64,000 bases of DNA from Mucilaginibacter sp. (GTDB taxonomy: Bacteria; Bacteroidota; Bacteroidia; Sphingobacteriales; Sphingobacteriaceae): assembly GCF_025359345.1 (NCBI RefSeq), contig NZ_JANYGQ010000036.1, positions 310,001 to 374,000 of the forward strand. Direction: 5' to 3'. The translations under genes and the position numbers were made by a program. The notes under the pieces were generated by a model. The model worked only from the letters and a program-made list of their open reading frames with translations. It did no database searches and had not been told where the DNA came from. Positions 16,701-30,030 of the stretch are shown in pieces; positions within the stretch are counted from its first letter, which is position 1, and each line of letters starts with the position of its first letter.

Positions 16701-18205
16701 GCGTACTGTCCCCGGTATTTGCGACTGCTACTACCGATTATACAACCATAGTTCCGTACGCCACCGCAAGCATACAGGTAACCCCAACTGCAACCGACGC
16801 GGGCGCTGCGATAACAGTAAATGGCGCGGCGGTAGCCTCAGGCTCGGCTTCTGCAAGCCTGCCACTGGCCGAAGGTGCGAATGCCATAACTACCGTAGTA
16901 ACGGCGCAGGATGGTACAACTACCAAGACTTACTCTACAACGGTAACGAGAGCGGCAGCCGGATTATCAACCAATGCCTTGCTCACAACCTTGAAAGTAA
17001 GCCCGTCGACAGCGCTTACGGCAGTTAGCGGCCCGGGTTATAAAAATTATACAACCAACGTGCCCAATGCCGAGGCAAGCTTAACGGTTACGCCCACTAC
17101 CCAGGACGGCACCGCAACTATAAAAGTGAACGGCATAACCGTGGCATCAGCTTCGGCTTCGCAGGCAATACCATTAAATGTGGGCAGCAATGTTATTAGC
17201 GTAGTAGTAACAGCACAGGACGCCGTAACTACAAAAAGCTATATAATTACTGCTACCCGTGCCCCATCTGGCATTGCAACGCTTTCAAGCCTGACTTTAA
17301 GCGCGGGTTCTTTAACACCAGCATTTGCTCCGGGTACAGTAAGTTATACTGCTGACATACCAAACACCGTATCATCTGTAGCGATAACGCCCACCACTAC
17401 CCAGGCAGCTGCAACTGTAAACGTTAACGGAGTACCGGTTATGTCGGGTTCGGCTTCAGCGAACCTGCCGATGGCTGTAGGGGCAAATATTATTACTGTG
17501 GCGGTAACGGCGCAGGACGGCACAACCGTTCAGACTTATACAATAACCGTTACAAGAGGCGTAACTTTGTCGAACAATGCGTTGCTTACAACCTTAAAAC
17601 TAAGCCCGGTTACCACACTGGCAACTGCCACCGGCCCCGGCTATAAAAATTATACAACGGCGGTACCCAACAGCGAAACCAGCCTGAAGGTGGTCCCAAC
17701 CGCGCAGGATGCTACCGCTACTATAAAAGTTAATGGCGTGAGTGTTGCCTCGGGCGCAACATCGCAGGCCGTTGCATTGAGCGTGGGCGATAATATCGTC
17801 ACTACCGTGGTAACGGCGCAGGACGGCGTAACCACCAAAAGCTATATTATTACAGTAACCAGGGCTGCACCAGGTATGGCGGCGCAATATGAACAACCAA
17901 CAACCGGTTTACCGGCCGACGGTATAACTGTTCGGCAGGGAGTTTCGCCGAACGGCGACGGTAATAATGACGTACTTACCATTGATGGAATAACTAACTA
18001 CCCGGATAACAATATTTCTATTATGAGCGGCAACGGCGTGCTTGTATTTGAAGCAAAGGGGTATAACAATACTTCTGTAGCGTTTGACGGGCATTCGGGC
18101 AAAAACGGCAGACTGCAGCCTGCCGGCACTTATTTTTATAAATTGGATTATAAGGACGGGGCCGAAGCGAAAACTAAAACAGGATTTATTTTGCTGAAGT
18201 ATTAA
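13721..18205 (+). CDS. Giant secreted NHL-repeat / cadherin-like protein with gliding-motility tail
   Basis: A 1494-residue secreted protein. A Sec signal (residues 1-22) is followed by NHL beta-propeller repeats (GVAADAAGYVYVADYGNHAV type, about 50-300), Ig-like domains ending in GLNFDFNTGIISGTPA, a second NHL propeller (about 480-730), and another Ig-like domain. Six cadherin-like beta-sandwich domains follow (about 785-1385), arranged A-B-A-B-A-B with a period of 202 residues. The C-terminus (VSPNGDGNNDVLTI to FILLKY) is a gliding-motility/T9SS type B sorting domain. It is thus exported by the type IX system and probably displayed on or released from the surface, with a role in adhesion or matrix binding. 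Monocistronic. Confidence 0.93.
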   Translation: MMKILRSVLSAFLVLAGLFCYAQKPVIQYGGIPYYYYYAKAQITPVVPTNTGGAVSTGKFVNFRSALGTLAAVTTDPTGNVYFTETGNNAVKTIPFIGGAPDTLAIGFNQPYGVAADAAGYVYVADYGNHAVKRIRIVGGTVVDLLSGNIAPYGLAIDKWGNLFFTDWISGSVKKIPAGGGAVTTLGSGFDSPTGIALDTAGNVYVADRGHNLIKKIDAGGVVTTLGSGNGNLNGVAVDAAGNVYFSDSNNTTIVEIPKNGGSVVPIGSGFSQPTGLYINEHGNIYVNDSGHQTIKELQATNFDINGKMPVGLNFDFNTGIISGTPAIKTNRKTYSVAAVNASGRSFTNVTIQIWGEQPHITYKTPDIFTVGDAIIPLVPVNTGGPVDVGYSVFPLLPDGLVLDYHTGVISGTPTTTLAAKNFNITGTIEGKGGYTTTINIKVIPATKPVLSYNTPQIYKADTVITPLVPNSNFVAPAGTTKAVTVASGLSNLSNVAVDNSGNIYFSQLLTNTVKKIPAGGGSPVVLASGFSSPMGVAADAQGNVYVADNGNNAVKKIPVGGGAVVSVATGLNGPSGLAADAAGNIYVTNLGNGLVQKIPAGGGSAVTVGPVFQHPTGVAVDGAGNIYVSDSGSNLIQKIPAGSNTATSLSSVNNPSGVAVDVAGNVFYAELNLGNIKELPVSGGAAVTIASGLNSPSGIAIDPKHVIYVNDSNNNAVKEFVPLGGFFIGLPLPAGLNFDYDSGTISGTPLATTPATDYPVVAYNKYGLASAIVNIKTVNGADLYDLHLSAGVLTPVFATTQTNYTAIVPNAIASLQITPFASDAKATITVNGLAVTSGSPSQTLALAEGANVITTVVTAQYATSTRTYTVTVTRAAGNLSTNAALSTLKLNPITTLTAVSGPAYKNYTTNVPNTETSLMVMPTAQDGNATIKVNGVTVVTGTASQAIPLNVGSNVINVIVTAQDGVTTKSYLITATRALPTIATLSNYTLSAGVLSPVFATATTDYTTIVPYATASIQVTPTATDAGAAITVNGAAVASGSASASLPLAEGANAITTVVTAQDGTTTKTYSTTVTRAAAGLSTNALLTTLKVSPSTALTAVSGPGYKNYTTNVPNAEASLTVTPTTQDGTATIKVNGITVASASASQAIPLNVGSNVISVVVTAQDAVTTKSYIITATRAPSGIATLSSLTLSAGSLTPAFAPGTVSYTADIPNTVSSVAITPTTTQAAATVNVNGVPVMSGSASANLPMAVGANIITVAVTAQDGTTVQTYTITVTRGVTLSNNALLTTLKLSPVTTLATATGPGYKNYTTAVPNSETSLKVVPTAQDATATIKVNGVSVASGATSQAVALSVGDNIVTTVVTAQDGVTTKSYIITVTRAAPGMAAQYEQPTTGLPADGITVRQGVSPNGDGNNDVLTIDGITNYPDNNISIMSGNGVLVFEAKGYNNTSVAFDGHSGKNGRLQPAGTYFYKLDYKDGAEAKTKTGFILLKY
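16061..17878 (+). repeat. Three tandem 606-bp units inside the NHL/cadherin gene
   Basis: The A-module phrase LSAGVLTPVF-like recurs with its GCG codon at 16091, 16697 and 17303, exactly 606 bp apart. The B-module sequence AAAAATTATACAAC recurs with TTAT at 16441, 17047 and 17650 (606 and 603 bp). Each unit encodes one A and one B cadherin-like domain. Confidence 0.85.
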
Positions 18206-18271
18206 CCTGCCAAAATTGTAAAATCAGCCGCATAGGTTTTTATACTTGCTGCTGGCTATCACTGATACAAC

Positions 18272-18305
18272 AAAAGCCTTCGGATAAATTTCTGAAGGCT
18301 TTTTC
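18272..18305 (+). terminator. Intrinsic terminator, GCCTTYAGAT family
   Basis: AAAAGCCTTCGGA pairs with TCTGAAGGCTTTTT and continues TTTTCTTT. It ends the long NHL gene. Confidence 0.85.
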
Positions 18306-18392
18306 TTTGGGCAATATTTAGCCGTTTTATCTCCCGCAAACAATTACACCACAAAGCAGTTATACTACGGTCAACTTTTTAATCCAATCCAT

Positions 18393-19718
18393 TTGACCGC
18401 GACAAAACAAAATAATACCGTTAAGGGATTTAACGTCACCCGACTATTGCTGATCCTTGGCCTTGCTGTGCTTTTATGCGGCGAAGGCTATTCCGGCTAC
18501 CAGCTGCATACCCTTTCAAAGCAGCAGGAACAAATCAAGTCCGACTATTCCGATATAAATAACATCACGCTCGGGCTGTTTTCGGTTACGCAGTGGCAGG
18601 ATAAAATAACCGGTATTGTAAATCACCAGGTTAAGCACTTTACGCTTACGCCGAAACAGAAAAAGGATCTGCAGGTAGAGGTGCAGCAAATACTACTTGC
18701 ACTCATTAACAAGGCCGAAGGCCTGCTCAACAAAAAGCCAACCTCGCTGGGCGGAAAGATTAAAAAACTGGCGGTTAAAACCTTTGTTAATACCGACACC
18801 ATAAAAGCCCAGGTACCCGCTTTCGCAAAAAAGATCATCGCCAAAATTGATAATCCTAAAAACAAAAGCAAGTTGAGCAACCTGGCGATGAGCAAGTTTG
18901 ACGAGGCAAAGCAAAGCGGCTATTTAGATAGCACGATTACTGCAAATGACTCGGTGAGGAATATTATGTTTAAGAAATACCAGGTCTCCTCGTCCGAAGA
19001 ACTTAATAAAAAGCTTACCGCATCGCTGAACAGTATCCGGGCGCAAACGTATAATTATTCGTTTGGTATGCTGGGCTGCATTGTGGCGGTGTTGATGCTC
19101 TGGTGGATATTCAGGAAACGGGTTGAATTGCACGCGGCACTTTTTATAATGTCGCTGTTATTCGCATTTATCCTGCTGGCGGTAGGCTTAACCGCATCAA
19201 TGGTAGAGGTAGATGCGCGCGTTAGCTCGCTCGACTTTGTGCTTTTAGGGGAGCACGTAGTTTTTAAAAACCAGGTATTGTTCTTTCAAAGTAAAAGTAT
19301 TTTGGACGTGGTGGAAGTGCTGATAAAACAGCCGGCTGTTGATTCCATAGGGGTTGGTATTTTGATACTCGCCTTTAGTATCCTGTTCCCGATCATGAAA
19401 TTAAGCTCTACCGGCATTCACCTGCTAAGCAAAAGGAAGCTGGCCGAAAATAAAGTGATCAAATACTTTGCATTTCAATCGGGCAAATGGAGTATGGCCG
19501 ATGTTATTGTTATCGCCATATTAATGACTTATATCGGCTTGAATGGCTTATTGGAGCGGCAGCTGGCCAGCCTGAATATTAAGAGTGATGCGTTAACCAT
19601 CATCACAACAAATAACACGGCGTTGCAGCCCGGCTATATCATTTTTATCAGTTTCGTTTTATTCGGATTGGTGCTTTCTACCATTCTGAAGGCTATTACA
19701 CCCTACGATTCGCATTAA
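18393..19718 (+). CDS. PqiA-like membrane protein, first of a tandem pair
   Basis: A 441-residue inner-membrane protein. One N-terminal helix (about 15-35) is followed by a long charged extracytoplasmic or coiled stretch (36-220), then a helical bundle (about 222-440). The C-terminal part resembles paraquat-inducible protein A: SKSILDVVEVLI, a conserved SGKWSMADVIVIAI helix and the final LQPGYIIFISFVLFGLVLS. PqiA proteins work with envelope lipid-transport factors in Proteobacteria; the role here is unproven. No ATG is usable near the N-terminus, and TTG at 18393 gives the right start, as in the neighbouring paralogue. The second copy begins 22 bp after the stop, so the two form an operon. 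Confidence 0.8.
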   Translation: MTATKQNNTVKGFNVTRLLLILGLAVLLCGEGYSGYQLHTLSKQQEQIKSDYSDINNITLGLFSVTQWQDKITGIVNHQVKHFTLTPKQKKDLQVEVQQILLALINKAEGLLNKKPTSLGGKIKKLAVKTFVNTDTIKAQVPAFAKKIIAKIDNPKNKSKLSNLAMSKFDEAKQSGYLDSTITANDSVRNIMFKKYQVSSSEELNKKLTASLNSIRAQTYNYSFGMLGCIVAVLMLWWIFRKRVELHAALFIMSLLFAFILLAVGLTASMVEVDARVSSLDFVLLGEHVVFKNQVLFFQSKSILDVVEVLIKQPAVDSIGVGILILAFSILFPIMKLSSTGIHLLSKRKLAENKVIKYFAFQSGKWSMADVIVIAILMTYIGLNGLLERQLASLNIKSDALTIITTNNTALQPGYIIFISFVLFGLVLSTILKAITPYDSH

Positions 19719-19740
19719 TATTAAATAATCAGTTACAGCA

Positions 19741-21063
19741 TTGACAAGTAACCAGCAAAATACCGCGGCAAGGAAATTCGGATTGCCCCATATCATACTC
19801 ATTCTCGGGTTAGGTGTCCTGCTTTGCGGTGAGGCTTATTTTGGCTACCGCCTGCAGGCACTTTCCAGCGAACAGGAGCAGATCAAAGAGGATTACAGTA
19901 CAGTAAACAATATCACGTTCGGTATATTTTCTGTCGACAAGTGGCGCGAAAGAATAGCGGAAGTTATTAATCGGCAGGTAAGTGATTTTCATATGACCCG
20001 TGCGCAAAAGAAAGCTTTGCAGGCACAGGTAGAACAACAGCTGCACAGTTTTGTGAATAAGACGGTGGCAGAGATCAATAAGCCCCAAAAATCATTGGGA
20101 GGCAAGCTGAAGAAACTGGCATTTAATGCCATGGTGAATGCGGATGATATACAGGCACAGGTACCGGGGTTTTCGAAAACGATAATAGACAAGGTAAGCA
20201 GCCCGGCAAGCACCAAACGACTGAAAAATATTGCAACCAGCAAGCTAACCCAGCTTGAAAACCAAACCTATGACAGCACTTACGAGGCAGACTCCGCAGT
20301 TACCAAAAGCTTATTCAGCAAATACCACGTTGCCGGTGCCGACGAGTTTAACAAAAATTTAGATACCCGGTTAGCCGCCATCCGTACAGTTACTTACAAC
20401 TACGCATACGCTATGCTGGGCTGTGTGGTATTTGCACTTGCCCTATGGCTATTAATGCGAAACCAGGTGCACCTGCATACCCCGCTTTTTGTGATGTCGC
20501 TATTGTTTGCTTTGATTTTATTGGTGGTGGGTATAACTGCAACTATTATACAGGTAGATGCACGGATACAGACCTTCAATTTTACGCTGATGGGCGAAAA
20601 GGTGGCATTTGACAACCAGGTATTGTTTTTCCAAAGTAAAAGCATATTCAGCATAGTTAAAGCATTGGTGAGCCAAACCAAGCCCGACGCTGTATTGGTG
20701 GGTATACTTATCCTGTTATTTATTATTGTGCTGCCGATGTTAAGGATGATAGCGAAGGGAATTCATATCGTAAGCCCGAAGAGAATTGCTGAAAACAGGG
20801 TGGTGAGATATTTGGCGTTTGAGTCGGGCAAGTGGGATATGGCCGATGTGATGGTGGTGGGTATCCTCATGACCTATATTGGCCTGAACGGCATCATCAA
20901 AAGCCAGCTTTCCAATTTAAACATTCATAGCGGCTCGTTGAATGCCATAACGGAAAACAATACATCACTGCAGCCGGGATATATCATATTTGCAGGCTAT
21001 GTAATTTTTGCGTTGATATTGTCGCGTATTTTAAAACGGATTACGGCGTATGGTGAGGTGTGA
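19741..21063 (+). CDS. PqiA-like membrane protein, second of a tandem pair
   Basis: A paralogue of the preceding gene with the same architecture along its whole 440 residues: N-terminal helix with GLGVLLCGEAYFGYRLQALS, a coiled region with YSTVNNITFGIFSVDKW, and a C-terminal PqiA-like bundle with ESGKWDMADVMVVGILMTYI and LQPGYIIFAGYVIFALILS. It also uses TTG as start codon at 19741. The two copies have clearly diverged, most in the coiled middle part, so the duplication is old. They may form a heteromeric membrane complex. No MCE-domain or PqiB-like partner gene lies nearby, which sets the pair apart from the proteobacterial pqiABC layout. Confidence 0.8.
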   Translation: MTSNQQNTAARKFGLPHIILILGLGVLLCGEAYFGYRLQALSSEQEQIKEDYSTVNNITFGIFSVDKWRERIAEVINRQVSDFHMTRAQKKALQAQVEQQLHSFVNKTVAEINKPQKSLGGKLKKLAFNAMVNADDIQAQVPGFSKTIIDKVSSPASTKRLKNIATSKLTQLENQTYDSTYEADSAVTKSLFSKYHVAGADEFNKNLDTRLAAIRTVTYNYAYAMLGCVVFALALWLLMRNQVHLHTPLFVMSLLFALILLVVGITATIIQVDARIQTFNFTLMGEKVAFDNQVLFFQSKSIFSIVKALVSQTKPDAVLVGILILLFIIVLPMLRMIAKGIHIVSPKRIAENRVVRYLAFESGKWDMADVMVVGILMTYIGLNGIIKSQLSNLNIHSGSLNAITENNTSLQPGYIIFAGYVIFALILSRILKRITAYGEV

Positions 21064-21131
21064 AAGTGTCGGTAGCACTTTAGCGATGGAAATAGCTGAT
21101 TCCGGGCATAGGGTTTGTATGATAAATCAAC

Positions 21132-21139
21132 TAACTTTG
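21132..21139 (+). promoter_or_regulatory. -7 promoter box TAACTTTG
   Basis: An exact match to the Bacteroidota -7 consensus TAnnTTTG, 17 bp before the ATG of the 57-residue gene. A TTTG upstream at 21114-21117 is closer than the usual -33 spacing. Confidence 0.55.
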
Positions 21140-21156
21140 TATAAACCATCTTCAAA

Positions 21157-21330
21157 ATGAGTGATAAAGACCTGGCTAAACTTTTTGAGATCGCTAATGC
21201 TGCCATCGCGAAGGCCAGAACTATGACCAAAAAAGAAGCTATTTCCTCACTGAACGATGCCGGTATCGTGACCAAAAAAGGTAAATTTAAAAAAGCATAT
21301 GCTGGTTGGGAAGAAATAACACAAGGCTAA
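21157..21330 (+). CDS. Small conserved-looking 57-residue protein
   Basis: An ATG-to-TAA frame encoding 57 residues, starting MSDKDLAKLFEIANAAIAKA. It is highly charged and helical, with a Lys-rich centre (GIVTKKGKFKKAYAGW) that could bind nucleic acid. A good -7 box sits just upstream, coding bias looks normal, and no overlapping gene competes on either strand. I do not recognise the family. It lies between the PqiA-like pair and the ubiquitin-like island, and the 190 bp after its stop contain nothing I can identify. Confidence 0.6.
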   Translation: MSDKDLAKLFEIANAAIAKARTMTKKEAISSLNDAGIVTKKGKFKKAYAGWEEITQG

Positions 21331-21522
21331 CCCACGAGCGAAGAGAGCAAAGGTAAGAAGCGTTGCGTACGTGTTGGCCACTTAGCGGAGAGGATTGGTC
21401 GCTGCTCAAAAGCCCATGAGACATACGCGCCGGAAGGGGGTAAATCTATAGTGCGAATTGCCCCTTAGTTATGCAACGCCAGCTGAAAGAAATCTCCTAT
21501 ATTTTGTGCTGGCAGCGTATAT

Positions 21523-22143
21523 TTATCGCTTATTTTTTGATTTCCATAAATCAGATAACGTTTTAATATCGCCGTCGGATATAGCAGCAGAGGGTTCAGG
21601 TCGTACACTGCAAACATATTTACGTGGATTACTAAAATAGTTTGTTTCGTCATCTGACGGCAAAAGAACGCCCTGAAATACGCGCGCGCCAACAACTAAA
21701 TTTATCGGGTTATTGTTGTTATTAGTGAGTTCAATTGAAAGGCAGCCGCAATAACCCGGTTGTACAATTGTCGACACAGTTAAACCTAACCGCGAATAGG
21801 AGCTGCGCATATACAGAGTGAGCAGGTGATCTTTTGGCATTTTAACGTATTCTAAACTGCTCGCTAGCACCGTTTGATTCGGATATAAAATAAATGTTTC
21901 TCCTAATTGCCGGCGTGACTCTTGGAAAAAGCGTTTAACATCCCGTTGACCCGCACCGGTCGCGTTATTTAACGAAGTGTCTATAAAGGCCTCGCGGCCG
22001 TGAACTGATACTAAGAAATTACAGCCGAGTCTGAAATCTATGCCGATGTGTGAAATTTGTGATTTCTCCAGCAATGGTCTAATGATTAGTTTTTGGGTAT
22101 TCAATAACTCCTTTATTGTTTTACCAGAAGCAAATCCGCTCAT
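21523..22143 (-). CDS. dCTP deaminase / dUTPase-fold enzyme
   Basis: A 206-residue protein with the trimeric dCTP deaminase fold. The signature reads MRSSYSRLGLTVSTIVQPGY, giving the phosphate-binding R113-S114-S115 and R118, followed by the strand CGCLSIELT with E138, the position of the general base in Dcd. The N-terminal IGIDFRLG also fits. Known members convert dCTP to dUTP (or dUMP); some act in phage defence by draining dCTP. It has an insertion around residues 55-80 compared with housekeeping Dcd. Its ATG overlaps the stop of the zinc-peptidase gene (ATGA), so it is the last gene of a three-gene operon, which argues for a role in the island rather than in housekeeping. Confidence 0.85.
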   Translation of the reverse strand: MSGFASGKTIKELLNTQKLIIRPLLEKSQISHIGIDFRLGCNFLVSVHGREAFIDTSLNNATGAGQRDVKRFFQESRRQLGETFILYPNQTVLASSLEYVKMPKDHLLTLYMRSSYSRLGLTVSTIVQPGYCGCLSIELTNNNNNPINLVVGARVFQGVLLPSDDETNYFSNPRKYVCSVRPEPSAAISDGDIKTLSDLWKSKNKR

Positions 22144-23270
22144 GAGACCTTAAGCCCCTCCCAATCTTTAAGTATAAAATAGTTACCGATGGATTTCTCA
22201 ATTAGGTTGTTGAGCGATTTATAGATCACTTTACTCGGTAGTTCCCCTTCTATTCCGGCATTTGATTTGAATTTTTCTGCTCCATCTAGCCAAATTTTCC
22301 AAGCATAGGGAAAAATACCATGCAATTCACCTGAATTCCCTAACTCTAAGGGCAAGAAATTATAAAAATCATCTGAATTAAGTACTTTATAACGTTTGGT
22401 CAGATCGCTTTTAGTTATCTCTTGGATGTATTTTTTTATGATTTCAACTAATGGATTGGGTTTACTTTCAAGAAAATCATTCACAATTGCCAATCTATTA
22501 TTACTGGACGGATGACTTCCGTAGGTGCGGTCAGCACCCTTCGATTCTAAATAATTCAAATAATGGTTAGACGTTTTACCGATATACTGTGCGGCGAATA
22601 GATCACAAAAATATTCTCCCAAATGATTTTTGAGACGCTTAATTTTTAACGGATTTTGATGGAAGTCGAAATATTCTTGGATTTTTGTCCATTCGTGTGG
22701 CGGGCACTTAATTAATTCTGTGGCCATCCTTTTCGACATACCATAATAAAGATCTATGAAGTGCCCAAGTTCATGATATAGGATAACCGAAGAAAAATAG
22801 TCCCGCGCTAGTATTAATGGAAGATTAATTTGTACAAGACGTTTTTCAAATGAAATTCCATATCCTGCGAAAATGGAATCGTATATATAATCCTCATTAG
22901 CTAGTTTTTCATCAAAGCTGTAAGCATCAATATCATTATTTAAACTAGTAACAATTATAAAAGTTTCTTCCGGAATCCAGTCATCCATAGCGAGATTTAG
23001 ACAGGACACTACCTCAAAGGGAATGGTATTCAAAGTGCTATCCATCAAAAATTCCAAACTCTTCGCTATAAAGTTTAATTGTCCCTGGATAACGAAAAGA
23101 TTATTCTCATTTAGCTCTGCCGGGAGGTTTGATTTTATAGCGTAAAAAAGGCTTGTCAGGTTATTTTGATAATTTTGTTTATCGAGGTCTGAATAGCTAT
23201 TATTTTGAGCTTTGCTGAGGAATATTTCACATTGCGATAAATGCAGGTCCAGTAGCTGACTATACTCCAT
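22140..23270 (-). CDS. M48-like zinc metallopeptidase
   Basis: A 376-residue soluble protein with no signal peptide or membrane helix. The zinc motif reads YHELGHFID (H166, E167, H170), and the third-ligand helix follows as HLGEYFCDLFAAQYIG (E219, D223), then GSHPSSNNRLAIVND, a phrase typical of M48-like gluzincins. It should be an active cytoplasmic peptidase. The N-terminal 100 residues are helical and unknown, as is the C-terminal third, and may bind the target. It is the middle gene of the operon: 17 bp after the 100-residue gene, and overlapping the dCTP-deaminase-like gene by four bases. In defence islands such peptidases often activate or cleave a partner. Confidence 0.8.
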   Translation of the reverse strand: MEYSQLLDLHLSQCEIFLSKAQNNSYSDLDKQNYQNNLTSLFYAIKSNLPAELNENNLFVIQGQLNFIAKSLEFLMDSTLNTIPFEVVSCLNLAMDDWIPEETFIIVTSLNNDIDAYSFDEKLANEDYIYDSIFAGYGISFEKRLVQINLPLILARDYFSSVILYHELGHFIDLYYGMSKRMATELIKCPPHEWTKIQEYFDFHQNPLKIKRLKNHLGEYFCDLFAAQYIGKTSNHYLNYLESKGADRTYGSHPSSNNRLAIVNDFLESKPNPLVEIIKKYIQEITKSDLTKRYKVLNSDDFYNFLPLELGNSGELHGIFPYAWKIWLDGAEKFKSNAGIEGELPSKVIYKSLNNLIEKSIGNYFILKDWEGLKVS

Positions 23271-23287
23271 TGATCCGACCTTTACAG

Positions 23288-23590
23288 TTAAGCCGTAACG
23301 GCGGCTCTACTGTTATTAATAATTGTCAGGACCATCGGTAAGTTCTGGGTTAGATTATCTGCATAAATTGGCATCAACAGAGTAGAACCCCAATCATATA
23401 ATCGAAGCTTAATGTTCAACCCAGTACGATCAACGTCTGCTATTTTTGTTTCATCCCGTGCCAAACGGGCTGCTTCCAAAATGATTGGTTTAACAATAGC
23501 GATATACGCTTCTTCTCCGTTGATCGCATGATCTAAAAATGAGGTAAAAAAATCAAGCTCAACGTCTTGCTGGTTGTGGGATCTCAACAT
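23288..23590 (-). CDS. Unknown 100-residue protein, first gene of peptidase operon
   Basis: A small soluble protein starting MLRSHNQQDVELDFFTSFLD, with helical segments and a C-terminal hydrophobic part (MPIYADNLTQNLPMVLTI). No known domain is seen. It precedes the zinc-peptidase gene by 17 bp and should be co-translated with it. Plausible roles are an adaptor, inhibitor or substrate of the peptidase, but the sequence does not decide. Upstream lies a roughly 250-bp AT-rich space that would hold the operon promoter and the terminator of the preceding gene pair. Confidence 0.65.
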   Translation of the reverse strand: MLRSHNQQDVELDFFTSFLDHAINGEEAYIAIVKPIILEAARLARDETKIADVDRTGLNIKLRLYDWGSTLLMPIYADNLTQNLPMVLTIINNSRAAVTA

Positions 23591-23793
23591 AAATTGGCTT
23601 TAGCGTAAGTGATAGTGACAAATTAATGACATATAAACTTAACTACAATTTTCCACAAAGGTTCAATTTTGCGAATTGTAATTCTTGTTTTCTTATTAAC
23701 AAAAACTAACAAAACAATTGCAAATGCTTGATTTTTAGAATCTTATAGCATTTTGGCGATTGTTGATAATTTTAATTTGGAACGAATATAAAT

Positions 23794-23826
23794 AAAAAAA
23801 GCGCAGGTATCTGCGCTTTTCTATAT
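23794..23826 (-). terminator. Intrinsic terminator
   Basis: AAAAGCGCAG, loop GTAT, CTGCGCTTTT. On the minus strand it runs into seven T residues, 14-15 bp after the stop of the 136-residue gene. It separates the regulator pair from the peptidase operon. Confidence 0.85.
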
Positions 23827-23840
23827 CGGTGCGAGCAATA

Positions 23841-24251
23841 TTACTTTAGTTCTTGCTCAATCGCTGTTAGTTGATCTAGTAGCAGGAGCGGGTCAATAAG
23901 GCCAAACACTTCAGAGATATCCTCACTGTAGGATGCGCTTTTAAAGCGGAAAGCTGGTGCATGAGGCTGTACAAATGAGTTGATTAGTGCAGTAATACGT
24001 TCAGGGACTTTTTGCATTAATGTATCGATTTTTCCCATTATTATCCCCATTAACTGTTGCTCTTGGTTTGCCGCTATCTTTTCCATCAAAGCAAATTTAT
24101 AGTTTTCAATATTTTTTAGGGTTTTATTGACAATGCTAACGCCATCAATACCTTCATTTTCCAACAGTTTTTGTGTGGTTTCTTCATCTTGATCACTTAT
24201 TTTCAGCAAGGAGTTTAGATATAAATCCTCTATCTTATTTATCTTTTCCAT
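23841..24251 (-). CDS. Unknown 136-residue helical protein beside the sigma-like gene
   Basis: A soluble, acidic, mostly helical protein (MEKINKIEDLYLNSLLKISD at the start) without signal or motif I recognise. Its start lies two bases from the stop of the sigma-like gene, so the two are translationally coupled. This pairing, together with the acidic helical character, would suit an anti-sigma or co-regulator role, which is inference. The C-terminal part (VFGLIDPLLLLDQLTAIEQ) looks like an amphipathic helix for protein binding. A terminator follows directly. Confidence 0.65.
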   Translation of the reverse strand: MEKINKIEDLYLNSLLKISDQDEETTQKLLENEGIDGVSIVNKTLKNIENYKFALMEKIAANQEQQLMGIIMGKIDTLMQKVPERITALINSFVQPHAPAFRFKSASYSEDISEVFGLIDPLLLLDQLTAIEQELK

Positions 24252-24253
24252 AA

Positions 24254-24835
24254 TTATTGAGTTATGTTTTTTCTTAATTCGGTCAATTTTCTCTCTATTC
24301 GTTTAACAGCATTGTATACCTGGTTTATAGGTATATTTAATTCTATGCTGATCTCGCGGGGCGGTAGTTCATTTTTTAAACAATCAAACACCTGGAAGGC
24401 TTCGGGATCGCTGCTGAATATTTGCATTACCATTTCTTCGAGTTCCTTTGCTTCTAGCAGGGCCTGGGGGTCGCTGGTCGAATCTTTAGCGGAGTTTTCA
24501 ATAACCTCATCAATAAATGTGGTGGTTATGACTTCTTTCGATTTTAAAAAATTAGATCGAATGCTATCAATGGCTCCTTTTAGGAAATCATATAAACTAG
24601 GGTATTGTTCCACATCCCATATTCTTTCCTCTGTCCAAATCTGCCGGATTGCTTCATCGGCAAAATGATTTGATAGGTTAACTATGTTAAATCGTTCACC
24701 TACCTGCGGGAATTTCTTCAATCTGTTTAATGAATAATAATGTAGCTGTTTGATCAGCTTTTCCCAGTTTTCCGCTTTCAACCGATCCAGCAACTCCTGG
24801 GTTGAAAGCGTTTTTTTATTTTTTATCAGCTCCAT
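24254..24835 (-). CDS. Sigma-70-like regulator, divergent from the ubiquitin-like operon
   Basis: The C-terminus (about residues 135-190 from the ATG at 24835) reads FDCLKNELPPREISIELN, then IPINQVYNAVKRIERKL, a sigma region 4-type helix-turn-helix. The N-terminal half has helices where region 2 would be (FADEAIRQIWTEERIWDVEQ), but typical sigma-2 residues are not obvious, so it is either a very diverged ECF-like sigma factor or a regulator built on the same HTH. A longer version from TTG 24898 is open; I prefer the ATG (MELIKNKKTLSTQEL). Its gene starts about 145 bp from, and divergent to, the ubiquitin-like operon, a position that suits control of that operon. Confidence 0.75.
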   Translation of the reverse strand: MELIKNKKTLSTQELLDRLKAENWEKLIKQLHYYSLNRLKKFPQVGERFNIVNLSNHFADEAIRQIWTEERIWDVEQYPSLYDFLKGAIDSIRSNFLKSKEVITTTFIDEVIENSAKDSTSDPQALLEAKELEEMVMQIFSSDPEAFQVFDCLKNELPPREISIELNIPINQVYNAVKRIERKLTELRKNITQ

Positions 24836-24980
24836 ATACAATAACTGCTGTAAACTTCGAGTTTTTTGCCGCGCTATTAAAAAAAAGTTTTGCCGCAAGG
24901 GATGGCAAAAAAATCATTTTCATCAGCATCTATTATCAGAAGGCCGACAAAGGCTTTATCACTTAGTAAATTAAAGAATC

Positions 24981-25430
24981 ATGGAAAATAACATTTTTGA
25001 ACTGACCATTAACGGCAAACTGTTTAAATCAGCAAAACAATTGATAAACGGTGAAGAATTACTCACGTTATTAGGCCTTCATAACTCTGCCGATTATGAA
25101 GTGCTGATGAAATTAACTGACCGCGAGTTTGAACCTATTGAGCTAAAAGAGGAAGTTGATTTGAAGAAACCTAGTGTAGAGGCATTCCTAGTAAAGCCTT
25201 ACCGGTCTATTAGCATTGAGGTCGACGATGAAAAATACCCGGTGACCGAATTGTTAATGACACCTAAAGAAATCATGGTGCTGGCAGGCCTCGATCCGCA
25301 AAAGCATTATTTAAAGCAGATCATCGGCCATACGGACATTACATATAAAAACGATCCCGACCACATTATAGGTATCGTTGACTGTATGAAATTCAGCAGC
25401 TGTAAAATAACCAGTACTACCGTATCGTAA
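24981..25430 (+). CDS. Two-domain ubiquitin-like protein (Multi_ubiq type)
   Basis: A 149-residue protein made of two beta-grasp repeats. Repeat 1 (about 4-70) reads FELTINGKLFKSA, then EELLTLLGL and LKEEVDL. Repeat 2 (about 76-146) reads SISIEVDDEKYPV, then PKEIMVLAGL. This pattern is that of the multiubiquitin domain family, found in bacterial operons with E1, E2 and JAB proteins. Unlike ubiquitin it does not end in Gly-Gly: the last residues are KITSTTVS, so conjugation would need another residue or other chemistry. It is the first gene of a three-gene operon; the E2-like gene starts 6 bp after its stop. Confidence 0.85.
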   Translation: MENNIFELTINGKLFKSAKQLINGEELLTLLGLHNSADYEVLMKLTDREFEPIELKEEVDLKKPSVEAFLVKPYRSISIEVDDEKYPVTELLMTPKEIMVLAGLDPQKHYLKQIIGHTDITYKNDPDHIIGIVDCMKFSSCKITSTTVS

Positions 25431-25436
25431 TTAGCA

Positions 25437-25814
25437 ATGGGAACACCTGAAATCGTAAGACAGCTTGAGGAGCTGGGTTACCAAACAACCGTTTATCCAG
25501 AAAACCCGAATTATCCGGGGGGATTTGTATCCTTTAAATATACTGTCCCCCATGGAAGGTTTATAGGTCAGGAGATTGAGGTGGCGTTAAACGCGCCTCA
25601 GTTTCCTCTTGTTCCACCATCAGGGCCCTATATCAGCCCGCAGTTATTGCCAATCAAGACGTTTGGGCCTTTGCCGCCATTCGACGGTATACATGCGCGC
25701 ATGGTGCCGAATGACAACTTTCAATATTGGAGCAGGCCTTTCCATGGCTGGAATGAATCGGAAAAGACTGTAAAAGAATACATCTGTTTTTTAAGAACAT
25801 TATTTGACTTCTGA
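25437..25814 (+). CDS. E2-like protein (prokaryotic E2 family E), no catalytic Cys in place
   Basis: A 125-residue protein matching the prokaryotic E2 family E. An N-terminal helix (EIVRQLEELGY) is followed by the beta-meander (NYPGGFVSFKYTVPHGRF) with the Pro-rich QFPLVPPSGPYISPQL that corresponds to the E2 PxxPP loop, and a conserved WSRPFHGWNES segment before the last helix. The only Cys (in KEYICFLRTLF) lies in the C-terminal helix, not where the thioester Cys of E2 enzymes sits. It may therefore act as a scaffold or use another residue. Its stop overlaps the ATG of the JAB-E1 gene by one base, so the two are tightly coupled. Confidence 0.85.
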   Translation: MGTPEIVRQLEELGYQTTVYPENPNYPGGFVSFKYTVPHGRFIGQEIEVALNAPQFPLVPPSGPYISPQLLPIKTFGPLPPFDGIHARMVPNDNFQYWSRPFHGWNESEKTVKEYICFLRTLFDF

Positions 25815-27319
25815 TGAAATATAGTATAGTAATAAGCGAGGCCGCACAGCGGCAACTAAAAGGGCATCTTGTAAGAGATGATGGACAGGAAGATTTATGT
25901 TTTGCATTCTATAAACTGTCAAGCGGGCTGCAACGCTGTTCGGCTTTAATTACCGAAATAGTGTTGCCTTTAAAAGGTGACAGAAACGTTCACGGTAATG
26001 TGAGCTTTAACGCAGCATTTTTTGATCGTGTTGGTTCTTTGGCCTTAAAAAAAGGTTGCGGCGTTTGCTTTATGCATAGTCATCCTTCCAGCGGCTGGCA
26101 GTTTATGAGCAACGACGATATCAAAGCTGAAGAAATGCTTGCCCCTCGGGTAAAATCAATTACCGGTATGCCTTTAGTTGGCATGACCATTGGTACCGAC
26201 GAAGCCTGGAGCGGAAGATTTTGGATAAAAGAAGCCCCGAGGCAATACGTACGACATTTTTGTGAATCCGTTAGGGTAATCGGTAGGGGATTAAAACTCA
26301 CCTTTTATGACAAATTACTTCCGTTACCAATATTTGACGAGGCTTTTCTAAGAACAGTATCCGCCTGGGGGGATCAGAAACAAGCTGATATTTCAAGACT
26401 GAAAATTGGTATTATAGGCTGTGGTAGTGTAGGCTCTATAATTGCGGAAGCTTTACTAAAAACCGGGATACAAAACATAATGTTATTGGATTTTGATACA
26501 GTTGAAGCTAAAAATCTGGATCGGCTTCAAGGCATCGGCCCAGATTCCGTTGGAAAGTCGAAGGTGTTTGAAATTCAAAATCGCCTGGATCGTATTAAGG
26601 TAGGAAAAGATGTGCAAATAACAGCTGTTCCTTATAGCTTAATTGAAGAAAAAGGCTTTAAAAGTGCTTTGGATTGTGATGTGCTTTTCTCCTGTGTGGA
26701 TAGGCCGTGGCCGCGGTTCTTGTTGAATTTCATAGCTTACGCGCACATGATACCTGTAATAGACGGCGGTATCGATACAAACCCCAACAAACGGATTACA
26801 AATCTTGACCAGGCCCGGTGGAAGGTACATACCGTAGGCCCTGAAAGAAGTTGTTTATGCTGTCTCGGGCAATTTACCCCGGAAGATGTGGCGTTGGAGC
26901 AATCTGGTTTGTTAGAAGATCCGACGTATATTAAATCGTTGCCTAAAGACCACTTTGTAAATCGCGGGGAAAATGTATTTGTATTCAGCCTGGGTTTGGC
27001 GGGTATGGAAATGCAACAGCTACTATCGCTTTGTTTACAGCCGCGGGGACAATACTATGGTCCAAAGGAGTTTAATTTTAATTCAGGTACCATAGATAGC
27101 GACTTTGATTTTCATTGTAAAAAAAATTGTGAATATCAAAAGATGGCGGGACTGGGGGATTCAGCTACGGTGGGTTTGACAGGTCGGCATTCGGTCGCAG
27201 AAAAACATCGCCATAAATATATGATGGTTGAAAGGGGTGTTGCCAAATTAAGCTTGTTCAATCGGGTTAAAAACTTGTTCAGACAAATAAATTATTACGC
27301 AAAAAGGCTGCAGAAATAA
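25814..27319 (+). CDS. JAB peptidase-E1 (ThiF) fusion
   Basis: A 501-residue two-enzyme fusion. The N-terminal JAB/JAMM domain (about 1-150) has the zinc motif MHSHPSSGWQFMSNDD (H88, H90, D102, with S99), a deubiquitinase-type metallopeptidase signature. The E1/ThiF domain (about 170-450) has the Rossmann GIIGCGSVG (202-207), the LLDFD nucleotide Asp pair, and NLDRLQG with the conserved Arg. Cys pairs at 347-350 (SCLCC) and 435-439 (CKKNC) should bind zinc. E1 would adenylate the C-terminus of the ubiquitin-like protein, and JAB would trim or remove it. The C-terminal 50 residues are basic. Last gene of the operon. Confidence 0.9.
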   Translation: MKYSIVISEAAQRQLKGHLVRDDGQEDLCFAFYKLSSGLQRCSALITEIVLPLKGDRNVHGNVSFNAAFFDRVGSLALKKGCGVCFMHSHPSSGWQFMSNDDIKAEEMLAPRVKSITGMPLVGMTIGTDEAWSGRFWIKEAPRQYVRHFCESVRVIGRGLKLTFYDKLLPLPIFDEAFLRTVSAWGDQKQADISRLKIGIIGCGSVGSIIAEALLKTGIQNIMLLDFDTVEAKNLDRLQGIGPDSVGKSKVFEIQNRLDRIKVGKDVQITAVPYSLIEEKGFKSALDCDVLFSCVDRPWPRFLLNFIAYAHMIPVIDGGIDTNPNKRITNLDQARWKVHTVGPERSCLCCLGQFTPEDVALEQSGLLEDPTYIKSLPKDHFVNRGENVFVFSLGLAGMEMQQLLSLCLQPRGQYYGPKEFNFNSGTIDSDFDFHCKKNCEYQKMAGLGDSATVGLTGRHSVAEKHRHKYMMVERGVAKLSLFNRVKNLFRQINYYAKRLQK

Positions 27320-27574
27320 CATACCCTTCTGGTACAACGCGGCCAATGCCATAAAGGTGGAATTCTCGTAACGCCATCCAGAAGACTCCTTTGGAGCCGA
27401 CTGATAGCCCGCATTGTTAACGAAGCTGGCTATTTTTGTGAATACAAATCTTGTAGTTTTTGAAGTAAATGGTTGTTGAAAATTTGTCTTCCGTAGTGCT
27501 CAGGTGTTCCATTTACAAAAGTGGGATGTCTTTCTGATGCGCGTAAAGTTAAATCATTGATAATCAAAATTTTT
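27320..27574 (-). pseudogene. Possible decayed coding DNA flanking the island
   Basis: On the minus strand two adjacent frames read like protein. One runs from a TTG at 27567 to TAG 27430-27432 (45 residues, containing ASERHPTFVNGTPEHYGRQ). The next frame runs from about 27440 downward, containing SAPKESSGWRYENSTFMALA, and continues antisense into the E1 gene. Neither has a good start and I cannot name a family. This may be leftover DNA from insertion of the island, or chance. Confidence 0.25.
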
Positions 27575-27608
27575 CAAAGCGTTCCACGTGTAAAAATGGA
27601 ACGCTTTG
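27575..27608. repeat. Perfect 12-bp inverted repeat
   Basis: CAAAGCGTTCCA, a 10-base spacer, TGGAACGCTTTG. No T-run follows directly on the plus strand. It lies right of the ubiquitin-like island and could be a regulator or recombination site, or a terminator reading leftwards. Confidence 0.55.
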
Positions 27609-27898
27609 CGGGAAATCGGGGCATTGTCTTCCCTAAAATTCAGCAATATTTTGCTCCATACTCCCGCAATTGTTTTTAACGTAGCCGCTGCGCGTCTCCG
27701 CTCACACCCCGGCGACAGGCAACAAAGCGACTAATAATCACCAACCAATAATTCACGTTTATAATACAAGTATTACCTTGAATAAAACACTCGCCTTATT
27801 TCCCCCTCCAATTCAATTTTTTTATTGTATTTTTCACACTTAAAAAACTTATCTTAACCTGTTCATAATTCCACTTACCAATTCTAATAAAACTTAAT
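27609..27898. other. Intergenic DNA before the GH42 gene
   Basis: About 290 bp, AT-rich near its right end, with no reading frame, hairpin or clear -7 box that I can support. It must hold the promoter of the GH42 gene. Confidence 0.3.
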
Positions 27899-29995
27899 AT
27901 GAGAAGCATAAAGCTTAAGGCAAAACTGTTGAGTCCCTTTATTATTTTGCTCTTTTCGTGTTCACAATTGATGGCCCAGATCAGCGGTAACAAACTGTTG
28001 TATGGTGTGGCTTATTATGATGAATACATGCCGTATCACCGCCTGGAAACGGATGTGAAAATGATGAAAGCCGCGGGAATAAACGTGGTGCGTATAGCCG
28101 AATCGACCTGGAGTACGGAAGAACCGCAGGAAGGCGTTTATGATTTCAGCCATATTGATAGTGTTTTAAATGCCATGGGTAAAGCCGGCATCCATGTGAT
28201 CCTGGGCACGCCTACCTATGCCGTGCCAACATGGCTGGTAAAAAAATACCCTGATATTTTAGCGACTACGCCGAGAGGGCAAAATCAGTACGGTGCGCGG
28301 CAGAATATGGACATCACCAATGTGCATTTCCGCGCCTATGCCGAAAACATCATCCGGAAAATAATGGAGCACGTGAAGGACAGCCCGGCAATAATAGGCT
28401 ACCAGGTGGACAATGAAACAAAGCCTTATGGCACCAGCGGCCCGAATGTTCAGCTCCTTTTCCAGCAATACATGAAGGATAAATTCAAGTCGCTGGATAC
28501 GATCAATAAAGCATTTGGCCTCGACTACTGGAGCAACCGCATCAACAACTGGGACGATTTCCCTTCGGTTAGTGGCAGTATCAATGCGAGTTTATCGTCC
28601 GAGTTTGCAAAATTTCAACGCAAGCTGGTAACAGATTACCTGGCATGGCAGGCAGCAATTGTGCGGGAGTATAAACACCCCAACCAATTTATTACCCATA
28701 ATTTTGATTTCGACTGGCATGGCTATTCATACGGCATACAAACGGAAGTGGACCATTTTGCGGCTGCTAAGGCCCTGGATATTGCGGGTGTCGACATCTA
28801 TCACCCAAGCCAGGACCATTTGACGGGCCTTGAAATTTCTTTTGGGGGCGATGTTGGCCGGTCGATGAAAAACGGGCAGAATTACCTGGTGATGGAAACC
28901 GAGGCACAGGGTTTTCCGCAGTGGCTGCCTTACCCGGGGCAGTTGCGCCTGCAGGCGTTCAGCCACCTGGCTTCGGGGGCCAATATGGTTTCTTACTGGC
29001 ATTGGCATTCCATCCACAACTCTGCCGAAACCTACTGGAAAGGCTTGCTCAGTCACGATTTTCAGCCAAATCCTACCTATGAGGAAGCTAAAACCATCGG
29101 TGCCGATTTCGACAGGTTAAGTCCGCATTTGATCAATCTTCAGAAAAAAAACGAGGTGGCCGTGTTGTTCAGCAACGAGGCGCTCACCGCTTTTAACGCG
29201 TTTTCATTCGGACCGGGGCCCCGCGAAGGCTACAACGATATTTTAAGGCCCCTTTATGATGCCTTGTACCATATCAATGTGGGGGTTGATTTTATCGACC
29301 CCACGAGTGCCAATCTTGAAAAATATAAATTGATTATTGTGCCGGTGCTGTATGCCGCGCCCGACAGCCTGTTAAAACGGCTAAACCTGTTTGTAAAAAA
29401 CGGCGGCCATATAGTTTACACGTTCAAAAGCGGCTTCTCCGACCAAAATGTAAAAGTGAGGAGCACCATACAACCGGGAATAATCGACGAAGCGTGCGGC
29501 ATTGAGTACAGCCAGTTTACGGCGCCTGAAAATGTATCCTTAAAAGACGATCCTTTTCATGTTGGCAAGGATAAAAATACGGTAAGCAGGTGGATGGAGT
29601 TAATAACACCTACAACAGCAAAAGTACTGGCCTACTATGACCACCCGGTATGGGGAAAATATGCAGCCATAACACAGAACAGCTATGGCAAAGGCCAGGC
29701 AACCTACATAGGCTGTATGACTTCGGACGCTGTAAATGAAAAAATAATGGAAAATGTCACAAGGTCGGCCGGGCTGTGGGGCGCCGACCAGGAATTGAAA
29801 TTTCCGTTGGTGGTAAAATCCGGCATCAACCAGCAGGGAAAAGTAATCCGCTATTATTTTAACTACGCGCCAACACCTGCAACCTTTATTTATCCGCATA
29901 AAAATGGCACCGAGTTGTTGAAAAACGTACCCGTAGTTTCGCAGCGTAGCATTGAATTGCCTGCATGGGGCGTAAAAATCATAGAGGAAAATTAG
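27899..29995 (+). CDS. Beta-galactosidase, glycoside hydrolase family 42
   Basis: A 698-residue exported GH42 enzyme that would remove beta-linked galactose from oligosaccharides. A signal peptide covers about residues 1-27. The (beta/alpha)8 domain opens with LLYGVAYYDEYMPYHRLETD. The acid/base is E173 in GYQVDNETKPYG and the nucleophile E333 in YLVMETEAQG; SYWHWHSIHN is also conserved. A trimerisation domain follows (about 410-620), with a small C-terminal beta domain (WGVKIIE). The length fits the family. No transporter or other sugar genes adjoin it, so it is monocistronic, with a terminator after it. Confidence 0.93.
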   Translation: MRSIKLKAKLLSPFIILLFSCSQLMAQISGNKLLYGVAYYDEYMPYHRLETDVKMMKAAGINVVRIAESTWSTEEPQEGVYDFSHIDSVLNAMGKAGIHVILGTPTYAVPTWLVKKYPDILATTPRGQNQYGARQNMDITNVHFRAYAENIIRKIMEHVKDSPAIIGYQVDNETKPYGTSGPNVQLLFQQYMKDKFKSLDTINKAFGLDYWSNRINNWDDFPSVSGSINASLSSEFAKFQRKLVTDYLAWQAAIVREYKHPNQFITHNFDFDWHGYSYGIQTEVDHFAAAKALDIAGVDIYHPSQDHLTGLEISFGGDVGRSMKNGQNYLVMETEAQGFPQWLPYPGQLRLQAFSHLASGANMVSYWHWHSIHNSAETYWKGLLSHDFQPNPTYEEAKTIGADFDRLSPHLINLQKKNEVAVLFSNEALTAFNAFSFGPGPREGYNDILRPLYDALYHINVGVDFIDPTSANLEKYKLIIVPVLYAAPDSLLKRLNLFVKNGGHIVYTFKSGFSDQNVKVRSTIQPGIIDEACGIEYSQFTAPENVSLKDDPFHVGKDKNTVSRWMELITPTTAKVLAYYDHPVWGKYAAITQNSYGKGQATYIGCMTSDAVNEKIMENVTRSAGLWGADQELKFPLVVKSGINQQGKVIRYYFNYAPTPATFIYPHKNGTELLKNVPVVSQRSIELPAWGVKIIEEN

Positions 29996-30030
29996 AAACA
30001 TGTAATGCCCGGCAAACACGGGTTTTTATG

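Follow-up and report, generated by a model that had tools for sequence, protein, structure and literature searches.

A block of eight genes at positions 21523-27319 of a 64,000-nucleotide stretch of a Mucilaginibacter sp. genome (assembly GCF_025359345.1, contig NZ_JANYGQ010000036.1, positions 310,001 to 374,000; hereafter the window) is made up of three modules and is not one described system: a bacterial ubiquitination-like (Bub) operon on the plus strand and, on the minus strand, a sigma-like gene, SIG, with a small partner, P136, and a three-gene cassette, p100-pep-Dcd. The main result beyond a preliminary description of this DNA, which was made from its letters alone, concerns the second module. 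As judged from homology and gene neighborhoods, SIG-P136 is a recurring CapP-linked neighbor, and a probable controller, of bacterial E1/E2 immune operons, one of which belongs to the established Bil system. All eight open reading frames (ORFs) lie where that description had placed them, with the spacings it gave. Family scans confidently name the ubiquitin-like protein (Ubl), the E1 and Dcd, as it had also identified them, whereas the remaining proteins are unnamed or weakly matched. Since their relatives elsewhere keep the gene order (p100 and pep before Dcd, P136 after SIG, and the E2-like gene between Ubl and E1), p100, pep, P136 and the E2-like gene are not chance ORFs.

The SIG-P136 pair is a recurrent neighbor of E1/E2-type operons

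SIG occupies 24254-24835 of the minus strand if it starts at the ATG at 24835, which we infer in place of the TTG at 24898 of the ORF list because it fits the relatives better; P136, of 136 residues, follows at 23841-24251. With the window SIG as query, six other genomes of a 296-genome sample of the phylum gave matches at E 1e-5 or better, and a common order recurred in them: SIG, a P136-like protein of ~130 residues and an M78 peptidase, in many cases with a divergent operon for E1- or E2-domain proteins alongside. A profile of seven SIG sequences matched 35 of 165 and 26 of 77 genomes of two further samples at E 1e-5, most of these matches being weak and probably ordinary extracytoplasmic function (ECF) factors. 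The weakest, which looked like such factors, were dropped before counting, leaving a census of 11 loci for which sigma homology was the sole criterion, viz., the six from the phylum sample and five new ones at E < 1e-25. Two of these (L140 and L141 in our numbering of loci) look near-identical, so that about 10 are independent.

P136 adjoins SIG in all 11 census loci; in L028 and L143 it is the N-terminal region of a fusion. Among SIG-profile matches at E 1e-17 to 1e-13, it was seen in none of three loci within the part examined. The gene next in line matches the PADLOC capP model in eight of the 11 (91-208 bits: L027, 207.7; L029, 171.2; L031, 91.3, where the gene is split over two frames; L032, 178.8; L140, 176.8; L141, 180.1; L142, 192.8; L144, 176.2). 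An E1/E2-type operon stands alongside SIG in seven. These comprise Multi_ubiq with a JAB-E1 fusion in L029 and L143, Multi_ubiq with a DUF6791-ThiF protein in L140 and likewise in its near-copy L141, a full BilABCD operon in L027 (PADLOC BilA 145.4, BilB 170.5, BilC 198.1 and BilD 446.6 bits), a ThiF-JAB (E1-JAB) protein in L032, and a CBASS set of DncV-like cyclase, E2 and SAVED proteins in L142. The window and L008, neither of them chosen blind, both combine SIG and P136 with a Bub operon. The preliminary description had said that it would be refuted if homologous ubiquitin-like operons never co-occurred with the minus-strand genes; they do co-occur, with SIG-P136 lying beside Ubl/E1 operons in L008, L027, L029, L140, L141 and L143. 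SIG relatives were found in no plasmid record when the L027 copy was the query.

Other genes at these loci merit mention. A gene of 80-odd codons lies by SIG in L140, L141 (where its product is a DUF2188 protein) and L144; in L140 and L141 it separates SIG from the divergent operon, and in L144 the similar gene is followed, where the Ubl operon would be, by a 301-residue protein with no Pfam or PADLOC match, possibly a new partner of the SIG-P136-CapP switch. A metallo-beta-lactamase read by eye beside L032 is not claimed, as Pfam gave nothing for it.

SIG as a sigma-like protein and P136 as its partner

Profile evidence points to SIG being related to sigma-70/ECF factors. Its family profile matches SigW (5wuq, E 0.0011) and SigH (E 0.0041) with most of its length aligned, the relative in L028 scores 27.7 bits with Sigma70_r2 (cut-off 24), and a profile of six relatives, with the window SIG left out, recovers the latter at E 5.8e-36. 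The formal best row for the family profile, 8vd6 CAP REPEAT at E 2.2e-10, is in our judgment an artefact, no stretch of it passing. Likewise, a profile of eight relatives from which the window P136 was left out recovers that protein (E 1.1e-7) as the best of the 61 window ORFs (next 0.34), even though a single-sequence search with the window copy found only the L030 protein (E 0.0033). Leave-one-out profiles recover the eight other members tested at 4e-34 to 2e-4, with the L008 domain at the weak end, and the six census loci outside the P136 profile match it at E-values between 2.8e-25 and 1.6e-4, of which the last belongs to the L143 fusion. P136 is found fused to an M78-like domain (L008), an SNF2 helicase (L028) and an N6-methylase (L143), which suggests that it might serve as a portable sensor or tether.

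It is also conceivable that SIG is no working sigma factor and instead acts as a CapH-like DNA-binding repressor keeping mainly its helix-turn-helix, with P136 as co-repressor. The low scores of the window SIG with the sigma families would agree with this, as would the nature of CapP's known partner, CapH, which is a repressor (PMC13373217) of XRE type, and the operator-type palindromes that the window and L140/L141 have between SIG and the genes divergent from it. Weighing on the other side are the L028 relative that passes Sigma70_r2, the alignment of the family profile with SigW and SigH along most of its length, and the PADLOC search, in which neither the window SIG and P136 nor the SIG and P136 of L140 matched any model, hence no capH. 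We regard a repressor as less likely than not and retain the sigma-like reading.

The palindromes may represent a shared operator; they were noticed post hoc and are a lead only. The window copy, TTTTGCC-GCAAGGGAT-GGCAAAA (24888-24910), lies in the SIG/Ubl intergenic region, and that of L140 (ATTTTCC-ACGGGAT-GGAAAAT, L140:7919-7939) lies between SIG and the divergent operon, with a similar one in L141. A hairpin with GGGAT occurs in two of 12 SIG upstream regions, a count reached by none of 500 first-order resamplings; the 12 regions omit L141 as a near-copy of L140, and the pattern was derived from the same two sequences.

A second, apparently distinct type of sigma-like gene, accompanied by a 300-residue protein, adjoins the same JAB-E1 clade in metagenome-assembled genomes of Actinomycetes, Thermoanaerobaculia and Caldilineaceae (L011:7663-9275, with L012 being the same locus met twice; L013:4741-8182; L014:3444-5074). 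The L013 protein scores 29.4 bits with Sigma70_r4 (cut-off 24.1). An SMC/RecF-type ATPase adjoins in L013 (Pfam); reading by eye also places one in L011/L012 and, upstream, in L010, in which the sigma gene was not found. We do not claim homology between SIG and this second type (L011, L013, L014), for which hhalign gave a probability of 6.9 and E 0.0053 over 41 columns, and P136 shows no similarity to the 300-residue partner.

Comparison with known controllers of these operons

In PMC13373217, CapP is described as being activated by single-stranded DNA and then cutting the repressor CapH, and among 544 Bub operons, 219 are counted with CapW or CapH+CapP and 59 with CapK+CapS, which leaves many without these controllers. 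As a probable controller, SIG-P136 shares with CapH+CapP, CapW and CapK+CapS its size of two or three genes and its place beside operons of the Bub, Bil, CBASS and related kinds, and in eight of its 11 census relatives the peptidase is CapP itself. It differs from CapH+CapP in that a sigma-like protein and P136 take the place of CapH and in that the window copy is without CapP. It has the appearance of one more family of controllers of immune operons, in which the CapH slot is filled by a sigma-like protein. If a sigma switch has indeed kept CapP and dropped CapH, operon activation would proceed through a released activator, unlike derepression. No description of a SIG/P136 pair, or of a Dcd-peptidase operon, was found in the open-licence PubMed Central literature as far as its accessible text extends, including the available part of PMC12839542.

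The plus-strand genes form a Bub operon

The three plus-strand genes are tightly packed, with gaps of +6 bp between the Ubl and E2-like genes and -1 bp between the latter and the JAB-E1 gene. The first encodes a BubA-like Ubl of 149 residues with two domains (24981-25430), of which residues 6-71 match Pfam Multi_ubiq at 53.0 bits (cut-off 24.5) and the second aligns with the single-domain Ubls of L007-L014; relatives in the PDB are 8u38, 9d5b and 9cd2. In the JAB-E1 clade, the last residue of the Ubl tail is Ser in 4, Ala in 5 and Val in 1 of the ten proteins counted (L012 left out as a duplicate of L011) and Gly in none, the tails ending Val-Ser, Val-Ala or Val-Val (window 25410-25430, ...TSTTVS). 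As Gly is never terminal in these tails, the chemistry at the conjugated end would be unusual.

The third gene (25814-27319) encodes a BubCD-like JAB-E1 fusion of 501 residues that scores 100.1 bits with ThiF (cut-off 28.1). Its closest solved structure is the Citrobacter BubCD (9ea4, E 4.9e-16, residues 6-363), with which the HSHP...DD stretch of its JAB domain aligns. Between the two lies a protein of 125 residues (25437-25814), which the preliminary description had called E2-like. Its fold bears this out: an AlphaFold2 model built from a nine-sequence alignment (mean predicted local distance difference test score, pLDDT, 76) has as its best VIA-align match chain 9eae_C of the BubCD-BubB complex (Z 9.2, root-mean-square deviation 2.9, 107 aligned), followed by UEV domains, while Foldseek alone gave no E below 0.5. 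The nine aligned sequences, however, have no conserved cysteine column. UEV domains are themselves E2 folds without the catalytic cysteine.

On this domain content, the plus-strand genes are a Bub operon of an already known kind, type 6e of Iyer et al. 2006, which according to PMC1779556 combines one to three beta-grasp repeats, a cysteine-less E2/RWD-like protein and a JAB-E1; the name Bub for such operons is that of PMC13373217. The window operon shares with them the multi-domain Ubl, the cysteine-less E2/RWD-fold protein and the JAB-E1 fusion. It differs in that its JAB-E1 scores only ~60 bits to BubCD, that a DUF6527-type gene was not seen 3' of its E1, and that its Ubl ends in Ser, none of the ten relatives being Gly-ended.

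In a related operon (G124), whose E1 is 50% identical to that of the window, a putative NurA/HerA pair, read by eye, directly precedes the JAB-E1 operon (L015:5310-8342).

The p100-pep-Dcd cassette

The cassette genes lie on the minus strand at 23288-23590 (p100, 100 residues, no fold assigned), 22140-23270 (pep) and 21523-22143 (Dcd), the last two overlapping by 4 bp, and they keep this order in eight aligned copies. The p100 position is taken in all eight by a gene for ~95-109 residues, 13-38% identical to the window copy; the copy on an E. coli plasmid matches PHROG 27938. Across eight pep sequences, 21-55% identical to that of the window, 39 columns are invariant, and the motifs HELGH, H..E.F.D.F and HP....R are kept in every one; pep also matches phrog_24479 (141.5 bits). 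It likely works as a zinc peptidase of the M48/gluzincin manner. Membership in M48 itself is not claimed, with Pfam M48 (PF01435) reaching 12.0 and 11.4 bits in the L043 and L044 copies against a cut-off of 20.3 and not being listed for the window copy; a pep profile compared with PDB sequences gave chance matches only.

Dcd exceeds the cut-offs of TIGR02274 dCTP deaminase (105.9 bits, cut-off 92.8) and of DCD PF22769 (92.3 bits, cut-off 27). The RSSYxRLG stretch and columns R113, S114, S115, R118 and E138 are invariant in all eight copies, with catalytic roles that we assume from E. coli Dcd. The cassette enzymes are 41-72% identical to the window Dcd and, on these identities, form a group of their own: among plasmid Dcds, with 73 records in total, 16 show at least 44% identity and the remaining 24 of the 40 listed at most 34%. 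They resemble housekeeping Dcds in passing TIGR02274 and in keeping the RSSxxRLGL and E138 stretches, and differ from them in this separate grouping and, for the window enzyme, in being a second copy in its genome, where another Dcd scores 114.6 bits, above the cut-off, on a different contig (C12), beside a weaker match below it. They share with the anti-phage dCTP deaminases of the PADLOC dCTPase model a predicted deamination of dCTP and an occurrence in defense islands; unlike those, they are of the Dcd/dUTPase kind (TIGR02274, PF22769), give no dCTPase match (window, L037 and L040 copies) and are accompanied by pep and p100 in all eight aligned copies. AvcD is an anti-phage dCTP deaminase.

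Searches of plasmid records with pep gave 16 records, or 17 with the Shinella copy as query, and the cassette occurs on plasmids of Agrobacterium, Shinella and Rhizobium, in Bradyrhizobium, and on E. coli and Salmonella plasmids of ~90-109 kb, presumably P1-like, with ref- and icd-like genes among the neighbors. In E. coli it is present in 8 of 5426 genomes, always on plasmids. A p100 search of the window's family found it in 3 of 201 genomes (G167, G091 and the window's own), the phylum sample in one of 395 (the window's own; with the window pep alone, one of 296), and the genus of G091 in one of 18 (G091). Relatives of cassette genes were found on two viral contigs only, one of E. coli type (L046/L149, a single contig) and L047; pep relatives were found in no phage record and, with the window copy as query, p100 relatives in no plasmid record. 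A decayed cassette lies on a Sinorhizobium plasmid (L105:8882-9617), with 24 pep residues and a Dcd spread over two frames.

This distribution invites the alternative that the cassette is a plasmid addiction or nucleotide-metabolism module with no part in defense. Five of the eight aligned copies are on plasmid records, and the window's genome already has another Dcd, so that the extra copy could be a plasmid-stability toxin. Yet three copies (window, G091 and G167) are on contigs not identified as plasmids, and the cassette lies repeatedly beside immune operons; we hold the addiction reading to be rather doubtful. As a candidate for defense by protease-gated nucleotide depletion, the cassette is compact, plasmid-borne and naturally present in E. 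coli.

Recurrent association of the cassette with the ubiquitin-like operon

The preliminary description had proposed that all eight genes form a single system, with dCTP depletion under the control of tagging and proteolysis. In favor of this, the cassette has a Multi_ubiq operon next to it in three lineages independent of one another, viz., the window, G091 and the Agrobacterium/Shinella/Rhizobium plasmids, with different regulators: SIG-P136 in the window and capH/capP-like matches in G091 and Rhizobium. G091 mirrors the window, having Dcd, pep and p100 on one strand, capP-like (69.7 bits) and capH-like (45.5 bits) genes, and a divergent operon of Multi_ubiq, DUF6791, an E1-like protein, which matches the window E1 at E 3.7e-8, and DUF6527. 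In L038, L040 and L041 (Agrobacterium/Shinella/Rhizobium), p100 lies on the strand of the Ubl operon and starts ~70 bp after its DUF6527 gene, and the viral contig L047 has a putative DUF6527 gene, read by eye, followed by p100 and a cut-off pep. Against this stand the four lineages (L036, L037, L039 and L043) in which the examined stretch has the cassette without a Ubl operon, and the absence of the cassette, in searches of crudely called ORFs, from L078-L087, ten further stretches of the family with Multi_ubiq, and from 13 E1 loci (L006-L018, of which L011 and L012 are alike). In the window itself, the opposite strand and a terminator-like hairpin (23822-23795, minus strand; 12 pairs, 5 G-C, T-rich tail) part the units; as the hairpin, found in a consensus scan, would close the SIG-P136 unit, it suggests separate transcription units for SIG-P136 and p100-pep-Dcd. 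Of the one-system claim, the recurrence of modules 1 and 3 together holds up, but a single system overstates the link, as each also occurs without the other. The neighborhood search that the preliminary description recommended found SIG-P136 or the cassette beside Ubl operons, with the cassette rare in Ubl/E1 loci, and a single eight-gene system appears quite improbable.

Conversely, the Bub operon, the cassette and even SIG-P136 might be linked only through the pile-up of mobile immune genes in defense islands. The Emticicia plasmid pEMTOL01 has its cassette between annotated type I restriction-modification genes, and in Rhizobium sp. CIAT894 a PADLOC dCTPase, i.e., an anti-phage dCTP deaminase (L041:604-2229, 527 bits), shares the island of the cassette and Ubl operon. 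In the family sample, Multi_ubiq is found in 14 of 201 genomes, the cassette in 3 and both in 2, one of them the window genome that prompted this search; without that genome, the counts are 13 and 2 of 200 with an overlap of 1, which is not significant (~0.13). This explanation fits less well with the regularity of the link of SIG-P136 to E1/E2 operons in the blindly chosen loci (7/11), and with the related E1 lying within a few kb in 3 of 16-17 pep-bearing plasmid records, though all of one lineage, such an E1 being present in only 110 of 72,556 plasmid records at E 1e-20. Chance clustering is accordingly a possibility to be taken seriously, if one that we do not favor. Modules 1 and 3 are in recurrent association, each also occurring without the other, and the cause may be either function or island clustering; SIG-P136 is better linked to Ubl/E1 operons than the cassette is.

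A model of two working units

The explanation that we modestly favor is that the block is a small island, probably acquired, and comprises two working units, a SIG-controlled Bub operon and a self-contained cassette. In the first unit, the divergent promoter of the Bub operon would be controlled by SIG, itself held by P136. In relatives that have CapP, DNA damage or infection would activate this peptidase, which would cut P136 or the tether of SIG, and the freed SIG would recruit RNA polymerase to its own promoter as well as to that of the operon. The window copy, having no CapP detected in the whole genome, would need another trigger. In the second unit, pep could be a sensor or processing peptidase and p100 a small inhibitor or substrate, with Dcd as the effector that converts dCTP to dUTP and starves phage DNA synthesis. 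A mobile additional Dcd governed by a peptidase and a small protein would fit an infection-triggered nucleotide-depletion switch. The two units would travel together repeatedly, in rhizobia perhaps as one transcript, and each would work without the other.

Several observations weigh against this model. The window SIG is under every sigma-family cut-off (TIGR02937, 19.4 bits against 42.9), and P136 is fast-evolving, with the window copy among its most diverged members: a profile of six unfused CapP-adjacent copies finds it at only 1.3e-4. In four of the 11 census loci (L028, L030, L031 and L144), no E1/E2 operon was found by eye or by searches, and four neighboring proteins from these loci match no PADLOC model. 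The fused M78-like peptidase of L008 has no capP match, nor is there one among the eight window proteins or in the whole 6.9-Mb genome; thus, the window lacks CapP, and the proposed trigger is missing exactly there. Phage protection by Bub is, according to PMC13373217, so far not demonstrated. The structure model of pep has a pLDDT of 41, so that the term peptidase rests on motifs, and no PADLOC model matches the window p100, pep or cassette Dcd, or the L037 and L040 Dcd copies. The right flank of the block, like the block, was not found in the five genus stretches compared, which gives no clean boundary, and no empty insertion site was found. The idea of pep standing in for CapP in the window is rejected, given that G091 and Rhizobium carry pep together with a CapP-like peptidase (69.7 and 53.8 bits).

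More broadly, and only tentatively, with somewhat less than even confidence in the whole, we suggest that SIG-P136, with or without CapP, could be one more family of immune-operon controllers, triggered by damage or infection, in which a dedicated sigma factor freed by proteolysis would turn on a Bub, Bil, E1-JAB or CBASS operon. Under the same joint reading, P136 would be a portable anti-sigma sensor domain and p100-pep-Dcd an undescribed protease-gated dCTP-depletion system. We know of no earlier case of a dedicated sigma factor released by proteolysis for such operons.

Genomic setting of the block

Over 22-27 kb the GC content is 35-43%, whereas it is 43-51% over 15-21 kb and 44-51% over 28-33 kb; the difference is consistent with acquired DNA. 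Rfam gave no match within 18000-30000, and an RNA structure 5' of the Ubl gene was unconvincing (z -1.5). The left flanking gene is matched in 17 of 51 genomes of the genus, the window's own included, and in all five genus stretches examined, the block is absent after it. On this left side, the island is flanked by tandem genes for PqiA-like membrane proteins (18393-21063).

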